Assembly: GCA_015345905.1 (NCBI GenBank)
Contig: JADDTR010000019.1
Span: forward strand, 434,001 to 498,000
Length of the DNA: 64,000 bases
Direction of reading: 5' to 3'
From: Aotearoamyces nothofagi
Lineage: Eukaryota; Ascomycota; Leotiomycetes; Leotiales; Tympanidaceae
Shown piece after piece: positions 20,296 through 27,032 of this stretch (its first letter is position 1; every line of letters starts with the position of its first letter). The notes under the pieces are model-generated. The model worked only from the letters and a program-made list of their open reading frames with translations. It did no database searches and was not told the origin of the DNA. The translations under genes and the position numbers were made by a program.

Positions 20296-20825
20296 GTTGT
20301 ATATATATGATGGTTTGCTACGCTTTGTGCTTGGGTTTCACTGTGGAGAGTGCGACTCTCTAGTAGTCAAGATTGGTCTGGCGATCAGTCGTCAAGAAGG
20401 GTCGGCGGGGTATTTGGAAGGCAACACGGCGGTGACTCGTAGATAAGGGATGGGATAGATGAGGTGACAATTATCGGACTTGGCAGAGCTTGGGGGGTCG
20501 CAATTTTCTTGGATAAAGGGCCTGGATTGGCGGTATAGAGAATCGTTTACGGAGCTCTCGTCACTTATTATCTTTTCCAAGACGCCTCAATGTTGTTAAA
20601 CGCTCGGATCAAGGAACTTTCTCCAATGAACATTAGCGCCAAGCTAGGTGTGGAGGGCCCGGCGATATCCGTGGTGGATTAAGTCTGTGATTTTGCGTCA
20701 AAAAGAATTTAGAAATTTGATATTCGAATTTCTCCATCACGCGCTGTCCATTTCTTGGCCGTGAACAAACCATCATGACTTATTGATACCACGACCTCAT
20801 GCCTCATTTTGTTGATAGCGAGAAG
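20296..20825. promoter_or_regulatory. Divergent LC8/MRD1 intergenic region
   Basis: 530 bp between two divergent start codons, so it holds both promoters. The MRD1 frame is open upstream to another ATG at 20799, but the conserved protein starts at 20826. No repeat or further gene seen. Confidence 0.5.
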
Positions 20826-23733
20826 ATGGCTTCTTCGCGTATTTTCGTGAAGGGTTTACCCCCTACGATCTCAGAGGCCGAATTCAAGAGCCATTTTTCT
20901 GCGAGGCAGGCCATCACAGATGCAAAATTAATTCCTCACAGGAGGATTGGCTATGTCGGATACAAGACCCCTCAAGATGCTGAGGATGCAGTCAAGTACT
21001 TCAACAAGTCGTTTATACGCATGTCAAGGGTTGGAGTGGAAATTGCTAGACCGGTATGTTTATATTTTTATTCCGTGCTCCAGTTGAAATGATGAACAAC
21101 ATGACGTTATACCCAGCTCACTCAGATGCACAAGTTGCAAATGCTGCGAACACGTATCTACTTTCTGATCACTAAACATCCACTACACAGTGTTATGCAC
21201 AAATAAATAGCCGATACTGATTGTTTATAGATTTCTGACTCGACGTTACCGCCGTCAAGGAAAGAACAGAGAGAGCATGCAAAGGATGTACAAAGATCAA
21301 AGGAGGCTGCGAAAGCTGTGAAGGATGCGAGCATCACTAGCAATCCAGCCTTGAAGAGAAAACACAATGAAGTGGATGAAACCGACCCCAAACTGCAAGA
21401 ATTTCTCGAAATAATGCAGCCATCTTCGAAGTCAAAGACCTGGGGAGCACAGGATCAGAGTATGGATGAGCCACCAACCAAGATGCAAGCTATCGAACTA
21501 CCGGAGGCTGAGAGTGATGGTGAATACGAAGCCGTGCCCAAGAAAGCCCGAAAGGAACATACTTCGCTGAAGCCAGTTTCAATGCCATCTGCTCCACCTG
21601 TTGCTGCTGCCATACCAGAATTAATCGAGGCTACTGATGAGCACGAGCCGATAGAGGTAAACACTACTACAGTTGTGCCTGTACTTGGCCCAGATGCTAC
21701 AGATGATGACTGGCTCCGATCCCGCACAAATAGGTTGCTTGACTTGGTCGTCCCGCGCGAGGTCCCTGACATCGTAGCTCCTCAATTGACAGTGACGAAT
21801 GAGCGACCTGAGGTCCAAGAGGAGGACACAGCGGTCGACAAAGGCATCCAAACAGAGGTCGAGCCTGCACAGGAAGATAACTTAGAAGATAAAGACCTGC
21901 TAGAAGTGACTGATGCAACTATGGATGCTATTCGGTCTAATGGGCGACTGTTTGTCCGAAACCTCCCGTACACCGCATCTGAAGACGAGCTACGACAGCA
22001 TTTTCAGCCATATGGTTCTCTAGAAGAGGTCAGTTTCTTCTCTTTTTCTTTCTCTTTGCTTTTATGATGAATATCCAGATAGGGACAGCTTATGCTCTCA
22101 GAGCATGTGATGTGAACTGGACGAGAATTTTAGTAGATGCTTCGTATTTTCTGAAAGCCTTTTGTCAGCAATTGTTAATTTGGACAACTTTTCTTATATC
22201 CACTAACAATATCCGCTCATACAGGTTCACCTGCCACTCGATGCGTCAGGAACAAGTAAGGGATTCTTACTGGTGCAGTTCGAAGACCCAAACGCAGCCG
22301 TGGAGGCCTTTCATAATCTTGATGGTGAACCATTTCAAGGTCGATTACTGCACATCTTGCCAGCTGCCGCTAAGAGACAGAACAAGCTTGATGAATTTGA
22401 GATTGCAAAACTACCACTCAAAAAGCAGAAACAAATTAAGAAAAAAGCCGAAGCTGCAACAACAACTTTCAACTGGAACTCCCTATACATGAACCAAGAC
22501 GCTGTCAACTCGTCCATTGCAGAACGCCTTGGTATGTCAAAGTCCGAGCTTCTAGACCCGACTTCAGCAGATGCCGGTGTGAAACAAGCGATAGCGGAGA
22601 CATCCATTATACAGGAAACTAAAGCCTACTTTTCAAATAACGGTGTCGACTTAAACGCATTTAAAAGAAAGGAGCGAGGTGATACCGCTATTCTTGTTAA
22701 GAACTTCCCTTACGGTATGGCGATAGAGGAGCTCAGAAGACTGTTCGAAGAGTTTGGACAAGTCCTTCGAGTTCTGATGCCGCCGACCGGAACAATAGCC
22801 ATTGTAGAATTCGCACAAGCTCCGCAGGCTAGAGCCGCCTTTGCAAGCTTGGCTTATCGGCGGATGAAAGACTCAATACTCTTCCTTGAAAAGGCACCTA
22901 AGGACATATTTACGCATGCTAGCATCAATGATGTCACAGAGGTTTCAACCGGCCCATCTGCCGGTCAGCAGCCATCTGTCGATGCGAAGCCATCAGCTGC
23001 TGATCTTCTTGAGAGAGAAAGTGGCGAGAGAAGCGTGGATACGAGTACTCTATTCGTCCGAAATCTCAGCTTCAACACCACTAATGAGCGACTCACTGAA
23101 GTGTTCAAGCCACTGGATGGTTTCATGTCAGCCAGAGTCAACACTAAGACTGATCCAAAGAAGCCTGGTCAAGTCTTGAGCATGGGCTTTGGCTTCTTGG
23201 AGTTCAGAAGCAAGGCCCAAGCTCAAGCGGCCCTTTCCGCCATGGATGGATATAGTCTAGATGGTCATAAGCTGGTCATCAAGGCGTCACACAAAGGTCT
23301 TGATGCAGCAGAGGAACGTAGGAAGGAGGATAGGGCCAAGAAGTTGGCCGGAAAGCGTACGAAGATTATTATTAAAAATTTGCCTTTCGAGGCATCTAAG
23401 AAGGATGTACGCGCACTCTTCGGGACATATGGACAGCTCCGTTCGGTAAGAGTCCCAAAGAAGTTCGATAATTCTGCTCGAGGGTTTGCCTTTGCAGAGT
23501 TCGTAACGGCCCGTGAGGCGGAGAATGCACTAGAGGCTTTGAAGGACACCCATTTACTAGGACGTCGTCTTGTGATTGAATTTGCAAGCGAGGATCCTTT
23601 GGATGCAGAGCAAGAAATCGAGAAGATGCAGAAGAAGGTTGGAAAGCAGGTCAGCAAGGTTGCCTTACAAAAGTTGACTGGAGGAGGCCGCAAGAAATTT
23701 AATATCGAGGGTAATGATAATGAGGAAGATTAG
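20826..23733 (+). CDS. mrd1: Multiple RNA-binding domain protein MRD1 (RBM19 family)
   Basis: Exons 20826-21053, 21231-22028 and 22225-23733, with introns of 177 and 196 nt, give 844 aa. Five RRM domains are visible: RRM1 from residue 4 (RIFVKGLPPTISEAEF), RRM2 (RLFVRNLPYTASEDEL), RRM3 (AILVKNFPYGMAIEEL), RRM4 (TLFVRNLSFNTTNERL) and RRM5 (IIIKNLPFEASKKDV). The acidic Glu/Asp-rich linker between RRM1 and RRM2 is typical. In yeast, Mrd1 binds 35S pre-rRNA and is needed for early 18S cleavages. Both introns are two to three times longer than most in the window and carry box C/D snoRNA-like structures. RRM2 is split by intron 2. Confidence 0.95.
21082..21173 (+). ncRNA. Candidate box C/D snoRNA in MRD1 intron 1
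   Basis: Within the 177 nt intron: perfect C box ATGATGA (21089-21095), perfect D box CTGA (21165-21168), and a 5-bp terminal stem with one bulge pairing 21082-21087 with 21169-21173. A D'-like CTCA (21117-21120) follows the stretch TTATACCCAG. That stretch can pair (eight Watson-Crick plus two wobble pairs) with UUGGGUAUAG, which I recall from the conserved 25S segment UUUGGGUAUAGGGGCGAAAG. The fifth-base rule points to the third G of GGG, matching the G I recall as yeast Gm805 (guided by snR39b). The rRNA sequence and the yeast assignment are from memory. The C' box is weak. Confidence 0.55.
22058..22158 (+). ncRNA. Candidate box C/D snoRNA in MRD1 intron 2
   Basis: Within the 196 nt intron: perfect C box ATGATGA (22064-22070), perfect D box CTGA (22151-22154), and a 4-bp terminal stem GCTT/AAGC (22058-22061 with 22155-22158). 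A C'-like GTGATGT (22107-22113) is present, and a self-complementary TGCTCT-c-AGAGCA hairpin lies between D' and C'. The 12-mer AGATAGGGACAG (22077-22088), followed by a degenerate D' (CTTA), is fully complementary to CUGUCCCUAUCU. I recall that sequence from 25S rRNA (context CCCACUGUCCCUAUCUACUAUCUAGCG), which holds two uridines methylated in yeast (guides snR66 and snR78). Recollection, not a search. Confidence 0.6.
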
Positions 23734-24843: not shown

Positions 24844-27032
24844 ATGGCACATGATCGGCATATACTGCCCTCCAACTACCCTCCTCCACAGCATATGACG
24901 TTGGAGTCATCCAGACCAAGGCAACCTCTTACAGACTCTGCTGGTAACGCCCAATATAACACGCTGGCGTCGACGGGTATATACAATGATAATAAAGGCC
25001 TACAACCTCGTGTTGAGCATGCTCCACCAAGGTTCTCACTGCCAACTCTTCCTTCGCAGCCAGCTCAACCTCATCTAGCTACAGCATTAGAGCTTCGAAG
25101 GAACACCACAAGAAATCAACGATCACGACGGAGCCGTAACCCCATCGTTGAGTCTACTCACTATCAAGCATACCGTGCTCGACAGGTCAAGGATTCCGAG
25201 GGAGACCAAAAATGGCCCGCCGAACTCGAAGACTCGTTCTTGGATGGTATATAGCTTCCATCCCTTGTTGCTCTTTATCATGATGTTGATATTCTTTAGC
25301 TCTCCTAGATATTCCAAAGATGGGAAGACGGAAGTTCTCTCTCAATGGCAAACCCCACGGGCGGAATGAGTTGATCTCATTATACTTATGGATTGCCTAT
25401 TGCGAGTCCCTTCCTCCCGGAGTGCAACCTGACCACACAAAGCAAAGGTCAAGAAAACAAGTATCAAGTCACATCCAGGTGCTAAAGGGTTTCATGCGTG
25501 GTCACCCAGCATGTAAGTGCCACTCACTCCAGACTCTGCGTTCGACGTACTGATGTAGAATAGATGACCGTCTCTTCCCGTCGAGGGATGCACCAAAGAA
25601 TGGCTTCGAAGACTCATTCAAGAACGATCCCTGCCTTCGAGCACTCGCTCAGCATCGTTTACCACACAAGCGTTCGAATCAATATGACTTCGTCCCAACA
25701 ATGGCGGCTCAAGCACCGCGACACCCAATAAGGCCCAGCTATTTTGATATGTACATGACAGTACTCAAGCCAGGGGTAGAGTTCAGTGATATGAAGCCTG
25801 GAGACAATGACGGAGAGGGGAAATTTACCAACAGGGTACACAACTACTCAGAGTCACCACTTAGGTGTCTTGGTCGAGAGAACTTGGAAGCATTGCCCAA
25901 CTGGCGATCAAGATTTCCTCTCCTCGCACAAGCGCAAGCTGTCGGCGACCTAAAGTGTGATATCATTCACATGGAGACATCACTTGCTCTCCGAAACGGC
26001 AAGTCACCCGAGAAAGCTGAGCTCTGGGGACGTTTCGAGATCGTTATCCCAGGCAGCGACGATCTCCGCTCCAGTTGGAGATGCACACAAAGCCTACACA
26101 AGCCGTCCGACCTCTACGGGCCTCCAGAACGCGACGCACGCTTCGAAAACGTCAGCGTCATGCTAAGTGTGGATCGATACGAACCCGGCGTAGGCTCCTT
26201 TATGCGCGTCAACTTCCCCGCGAACTCCTGGGCATACGCACTCGGCAAGCTCTCAGACCTCCAGGAAGAGTTCGAAGACGCTGTGCGTGATGGCGCACCA
26301 TGTCCCACTCAAATGTCCGCGCGTCAATATATCGACCAGATCTCCATGTACCAAGAGCTCTTCTGCTCTGCCGGCCCCGGACAGCCCTGGAAGCGTAAAG
26401 CTATCATTGCATGGACATTCCGCAAAGCCAAGCCTGGAGAGAAAGGAGAGACGTCATGGAGATATCTCGAGCCCGCGCCGCCGCGCCGCGCCGTGTTCTC
26501 TCCACACCCTGGTCCCAGTCACGTGGTATCCGCTGCCATGGCCGAAAACTTCAACAATGTGTGGGCCGACCCGCCCAATCTACACCAGCTACAGCCACCG
26601 CCGCCTTACGACCCCCTAAACCTTAATGGCCTTACAACGCCGCCCCAGACAGCCGTGCTGCAGAGCCCGTACTCACAGTATGGGTACCCTAGTCAGGGAC
26701 AACATGATCTCGCTGGAGAGAATCTCAGCTTTATTTCTCATGACACCCAGGATAGCGAGTCGACACTCGTCGAACAGCAAAATAATAATCAGATGAACCA
26801 CTTCCTTGGCGGTGGGAATGTCGATCTTAATGATCCATATACCAACCACAACCAGAACCTGTGGGCGGCCCCGCCGGTTGAGAGCTTCGATAATGACCCA
26901 GCTTTCCTCGCCAACTATGGCAATGTGCCGCCGAACGGAGGGCCACCAGTCTGGGATGGAGGCGATGTTAAAAGCCATCAGGGATGGGTTGATAACGATC
27001 CCAACTATGTTCCCTATCAGACACGGGCTTAA
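24844..27032 (+). CDS. abaA: TEA/ATTS-domain conidiation regulator AbaA
   Basis: Exons 24844-25246, 25300-25512 and 25564-27032, with introns of 53 and 51 nt, give 694 aa. The TEA DNA-binding domain spans about residues 124-200: KWPAELEDSFLDALLDIPKM, then HGRNELISLYLWIAYC, then RKQVSSHIQVLKGF. The first junction lies inside the domain; the second directly follows it. The long C-terminal part resembles AbaA/Tec1 proteins (with SSWRCTQSLHKPSDLYGPPE and PANSWAYALGKLSDLQEEFE) and ends in a Pro/Asn/Gln-rich tail. AbaA acts between BrlA and WetA in conidium formation, controlling phialide development. The promoter bears clustered AbaA sites. Confidence 0.92.

Follow-up and report, generated by a model that had tools for sequence, protein, structure and literature searches.

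What does the second intron of an MRD1-like gene in Aotearoamyces nothofagi encode, and which base of the ribosomal RNA would its product select? The locus lies in a 64,000-nt stretch of genomic DNA (the window), for which a first-pass annotation had proposed that the second intron of MRD1 holds a candidate box C/D snoRNA. The three exons of the host gene (Table 1) join into an open frame of 853 aa, and the protein contains five RRM_1 stretches. Against PDB, exon 3 matched 17 sequences, including the RBM19 domains 2cph and 2cpf, with poly(A)-binding protein and nucleolin scoring above these domains; exon 2 matched a single chain weakly, and the whole protein had no PDB match at 1e-30. Fungal Rbm19/Mrd1 proteins have in general five RNA-binding domains, according to the available part of PMC3440411. 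Since five RRM_1 stretches are present, five domains are typical, and RBM19 domains are among the exon 3 matches, the host gene is likely to be MRD1.

The snoRNA lies within intron 2 with its start 29 nt downstream of the 5' splice site and its end 66 nt upstream of the 3' one, and we take CACTAAC at 22201-22207 to be a branch-point-like motif. In Neurospora crassa, by contrast, the distance of snoRNAs from the 5' splice site is mainly 41-60 nt (PMC2780460, available part). The placement in the second intron is upheld for an MRD1-like gene by the 853-aa frame of the joined exons together with a match to the Rfam family RF01513. In the portion of the literature on Mrd1, introns and snoRNAs that was available, no report of MRD1 as a snoRNA host was met, though one may exist elsewhere.

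Table 1. Features of the MRD1-like gene and of the snoRNAs predicted in its introns (positions in the window). Pairing is given as matches/mismatches; L008 and L015 are eukaryotic LSU rRNA pieces.
Feature	Position	Strand	Sequence or basis
Host gene, MRD1/RBM19-like	20799-23733	+	Exons 20799-21053, 21231-22028, 22225-23733
Intron 1 of the MRD1-like gene	21054-21230	+	GTATGT..TATAG
Candidate box C/D snoRNA in intron 1, snR71/snR69-type, N. crassa CD27-like	21084-21172	+	
C box of the intron 1 candidate	21089-21095	+	
Guide of the intron 1 candidate	21111-21121	+	ACCCAGCTCAC, 11/0 to LSU piece L015
D box of the intron 1 candidate	21165-21168	+	
Intron 2 of the MRD1-like gene, phase 0	22029-22224	+	GTCAGT..ACAG (GT..AG); exon joining keeps the frame open
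Predicted box C/D snoRNA in intron 2, RF01513 (Afu_335), snR64/U74-type	22058-22158	+	Rfam match
Terminal stem, 4 bp	22058-22061 with 22155-22158	+	GCTT with AAGC
C box	22064-22070	+	AUGAUGA (ATGATGA), perfect RUGAUGA; sequence
D' guide	22077-22088	+	AGAUAGGGACAG (DNA AGATAGGGACAG), 12/0 to LSU L008:2702-2713
D' box	22089-22092	+	CUUA (CTTA), one mismatch to CTGA
Hairpin between D' and C'	22092-22106	+	ATGCTC-TCA-GAGCAT; sequence and minimum-energy fold
C' box	22107-22113	+	GUGAUGU (GTGATGT); sequence
Candidate accessory pairing	22131-22138	+	UAGUAGAU, 8/0 to L008:2710-2717
D box	22151-22154	+	CUGA (CTGA); sequence

The segment at 22058-22158 has the features of a box C/D snoRNA. RUGAUGA and CUGA boxes lie near its ends and a short stem closes it, and an rRNA-complementary guide within the usual 10-21 nt adjoins CTTA directly on its 5' side, judged against L008 as a proxy for the large subunit rRNA. 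The perfect C and D boxes, the terminal stem, the C' box and the hairpin between D' and C' that had been described in intron 2 are all present where the first-pass annotation had put them. The Rfam search that it had also asked for matched RF01513 (Afu_335) at 22060-22156 on the forward strand with 87.5 bits (gathering score 50). The alignment spans model positions 1-96 of 96, and RF01513 is the one family at gathering score in the 64-kb window. The segment shares with Afu_335, a box C/D snoRNA of A. fumigatus, the boxes, the guide and a conserved stretch towards the 3' end, but relative to the model it has gained 2 nt in the D'-C' loop, lost 1 nt and changed at scattered positions. Under permissive settings, snR64 (RF00509) also aligned to this span, with 31.4 bits where its gathering score is 38; outside the guide, the sequence has diverged from snR64. 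Five matches were listed at E up to 10, with three lower-scoring matches of the same clan left out, and the snoRNA families among them besides Afu_335 were snR64 and SNORD49. The folding energy was unremarkable (z -0.70; 47 of 200 shuffles were equal or better). On its boxes and its whole-model match, the segment is a member of an already catalogued snoRNA family. A literature search by name found no paper on Afu-335.

We searched the assembly for the 25S rRNA of the species itself. A first conserved LSU pattern had no exact occurrence and a single place with one mismatch, which had no Rfam match, and a second pattern was not found with up to two mismatches. The rDNA is thus probably absent from this assembly, and therefore a eukaryotic LSU contig, L008 (1-3101 of JABSRU010000113.1; RF02543, 1778.7 bits), was used as a stand-in. 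A second eukaryotic LSU piece, L015 (1480-2303; RF02543, 175.1 bits), comes from the same genome as L008. This genome is recorded as a gammaproteobacterial metagenome-assembled genome, and the eukaryotic LSU rRNA in it is presumably contamination.

The first-pass annotation had described the 12-mer as exactly complementary to conserved LSU rRNA, and it pairs with L008 over all 12 nt. This is the longest Watson-Crick run between the snoRNA and L008, followed by three runs of 8 nt, one of which (22131-22138) falls on the rRNA site of the guide itself. When G-U pairs were allowed, a run at 22104-22115 also reached 12 nt, elsewhere on the LSU, and ties with the guide. A run of at least 12 nt to L008 arose in 24 of 20,000 first-order Markov draws of the 18 nt between the C box and D', and in 59 of 5,000 draws of the whole 101 nt. 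We also scanned both strands of the window with a template consisting of a C box, a D box 55-135 nt on, and an LSU complement ending at or one base before a D'-like box. With runs of at least 11 nt, two distinct C/D' sites were found, namely the intron 2 snoRNA and a candidate in intron 1; 30 Markov-drawn windows averaged 0.07 such sites, and none had more than 1. At 10 nt or more there were three sites (control mean 0.4, maximum 2), and at 9 nt or more four sites (control mean 1.4, maximum 6); since the control maximum exceeds the count at the last setting, the template separates well at the strict setting only. Across the genome, the 12-mer has four exact sites, namely the snoRNA itself and three others, none of which had an Rfam match at gathering score; the reversed 12-mer occurs three times. 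In viral contigs, an LSU pattern was not found. A C-box-plus-guide pattern had six loci there, none of the six with an Rfam match at gathering score, and these were taken as chance occurrences.

The target base depends on the D' box, which the first-pass annotation had called degenerate, naming no exact base; CTTA at 22089 was the only one of 12 positions tried with one mismatch to CTGA. By the D'+5 rule with CTTA as D', G22084 pairs with C2706 of L008. This base corresponds to C2299 of N. crassa: all nine sites of Table 1 of PMC2780460 (in the part available) that lie within 140 nt fit the same L008 offset, and the next best of 220 offsets fits six of the nine. Of all 33 table sites falling on L008, 18 fit at the one offset that gives C2706 = C2299, and those that do not fit are distant from the target, in regions where insertions and deletions are to be expected. 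N. crassa 26S Cm2299 is the site of CD36, which is listed as homologous to snR64, snoR44 and U74 and is also intronic, like the snoRNA here (PMC2780460). Yeast snR64 has been tied to 25S C2337, as far as the available text of PMC2806949 goes. AtsnoR44, U74 and snR64 are grouped on one site in the accessible part of PMC3511168, where the snR64 site is printed as Cm2235, not C2337. The D' guide of intron 2 thus resembles those of yeast snR64, N. crassa CD36, plant snoR44 and human U74, with the same target C by numbering: its D'+5 base falls on the C2337 equivalent, which maps to N. crassa C2299. As the other entries of the table with Cm2235 run 2-3 below the usual yeast numbers, Cm2235 is probably a misprint of 2335. 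By the D'+5 rule with CTTA, the intron 2 guide would select the equivalent of yeast 25S C2337.

Intron 2 therefore almost certainly encodes a box C/D snoRNA of the Afu_335/snR64/U74 kind, predicted to guide methylation at the yeast C2337 equivalent. The two uridines near which the first-pass annotation had placed the guide are those of snR66 and snR78, whose homologues target N. crassa Um2379 and Um2383 (PMC2780460, Table 1, in the part available). These sites are in the same rRNA, but the 12-nt guide pairs upstream of them, with its site 80 and 84 nt away from the two uridines and at the snR64/U74 position, and neither family is among the five Rfam matches listed at E up to 10. That the snoRNA belongs with snR66 and snR78 and directs those uridines is thus scarcely credible, and these yeast counterparts have to be replaced. 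A decayed snoRNA, whose functional counterpart lies elsewhere or is absent from the assembly, is another explanation to be weighed, as the assembly is incomplete and the snoRNA is predicted from sequence. However, the boxes and the guide are intact, and a genome-wide search for RF01513, with 54 of 2754 candidates scored, gave at least one match over the family cut-off, the one in intron 2; we regard a pseudogene as very unlikely.

The stretch UAGUAGAU before the D box raises the further question of whether the snoRNA carries a second guide. Its rRNA site overlaps that of the D' guide by 4 nt, which counts against accessory pairing. UAGUAGA is conserved in the Rfam consensus sequences of Afu_335 and snR64 alike, and this would suit an independent methylation guide as well as an accessory element. 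However, 12 nt lie between the end of the stretch and the D box at 22151; the +5 base is thus outside it and the D+5 rule does not read it, and a second guide is therefore improbable. A run of at least 8 nt near the target was reached in 653 of 20,000 Markov draws, and a coincidence would thus not be very rare. Additional base pairing that enhances methylation, in some cases overlapping with the guide, has been described, with snR64 not named in the available part of the source (PMC5389607). On the rRNA, the stretch is likely to pair immediately 3' of the guide duplex, in an accessory role.

Taking the snoRNA as a guide of the snR64/U74 group, its action can be outlined from the class to which it belongs. 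Box C/D snoRNAs are stable RNAs bound by fibrillarin, Nop56, Nop58 and Snu13, and from this knowledge of the class we infer expression, processing, protein binding and methylation for the intron 2 snoRNA. Once freed from intron 2 of the MRD1-like pre-mRNA, it would be trimmed to a length of about 97-101 nt, and the core proteins would be bound at C/D and C'/D'. The D' guide would pair over 12 nt with 25S rRNA, for which the sequence CUGUCCCUAUCU is expected, and fibrillarin would methylate the 2'-OH of the bracketed C in CUGU(C)CCUAUCU, the yeast C2337 equivalent. Less surely, UAGUAGAU would add its accessory pairing next to the duplex.

Intron 1 contains the second site of the template scan. 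Two D'-like boxes, each with one mismatch to CTGA, were found among 12 positions tried: CTCA at 21121, which overlaps the last base of the guide, and CAGA at 21123. Under the +5 rule, CTCA selects the C and CAGA the A of GTGAGC, a motif that we take to hold yeast A2946 and C2948. The sites of N. crassa CD27, with snR71/snR69 and U29 as counterparts, are Am2904 and Cm2906 (PMC2780460, in the part available). In the intron 1 candidate, the A and the C selected by the D'-like boxes are separated by the same distance of two as the CD27 sites; its guide is 11 nt long compared with the 15/0 reported for CD27 in the same source. The A and C selected are probably the equivalents of Am2904 and Cm2906, but the numbering is not settled, since, of the six nearby sites besides the two targets, all but G2875 fit the offset, and a fit of five of six is also obtained at 2 of 613 other offsets. 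Over all table sites on the contig, 11 of 20 fit. An 11-nt match alone arose in 383 of 20,000 Markov draws. No Rfam family scored over its gathering score for the candidate, SNORD29 giving 22.8 bits against 48, and its folding was unremarkable (z 0.20). The limits of the candidate were taken from the SNORD29 match and the end of a BLAST alignment, the latter set after the similarity had been seen.

This similarity is to a copy on another contig of the same genome (contig C12, about 26751-26929; 1466-1644 of the extracted locus L018). The copy sits in an intron of a Kap123/importin-4-like gene, whose product has Pfam HEAT and importin repeats and matches Kap123 in PDB at 3.5e-49. The two sequences are identical at 87 of 89 positions over 21084-21172, whereas the 5' flanks agree at 22 of 29 aligned positions and the 3' flanks at 32 of 57. 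The conserved block extends only slightly beyond the D box, which is what a snoRNA would lead one to expect. A pattern of the intron 1 C box and guide core had seven matches, against none in the control; two are intron 1 and the copy, and three of the remaining five are one place. The intron 1 candidate is thus supported by its boxes, by the two D' positions and, most strongly, by the copy.

In N. crassa, CD27 and CD36 are on chromosomes VI and I, respectively (PMC2780460, available part), and thus have no common host gene there. Intronic snoRNAs have been reported to change hosts over time, according to the part of PMC3511168 at hand. A broader reading, which we hold to be evenly poised, is that the MRD1-like gene is a double snoRNA host. 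Its intron 1 would encode a snoRNA with one guide and two D' boxes that methylates two neighbouring bases (the snR71 and snR69 sites), and its intron 2 a guide of the snR64 type. The intron 1 snoRNA would have been copied between the MRD1-like and Kap123-like genes together with intron sequence back towards the 5' splice site, an instance of recent mobility of an intronic snoRNA between two genes involved in making ribosomes.

The result for intron 2 is a correct annotation with a corrected target, and the snoRNA of intron 1 with its copy is the fresher part. The known workings of such guides are unchanged. The intron 2 snoRNA indicates which base an Afu_335-type snoRNA targets and links RF01513, which is listed in Rfam without a clan, to the snR64/U74 group. 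Both introns of a ribosome-assembly gene seem to serve as guide-RNA cassettes, and the nearly identical sequence carried by a second host gene makes the intron 1 snoRNA a usable case for the movement of intronic snoRNAs.
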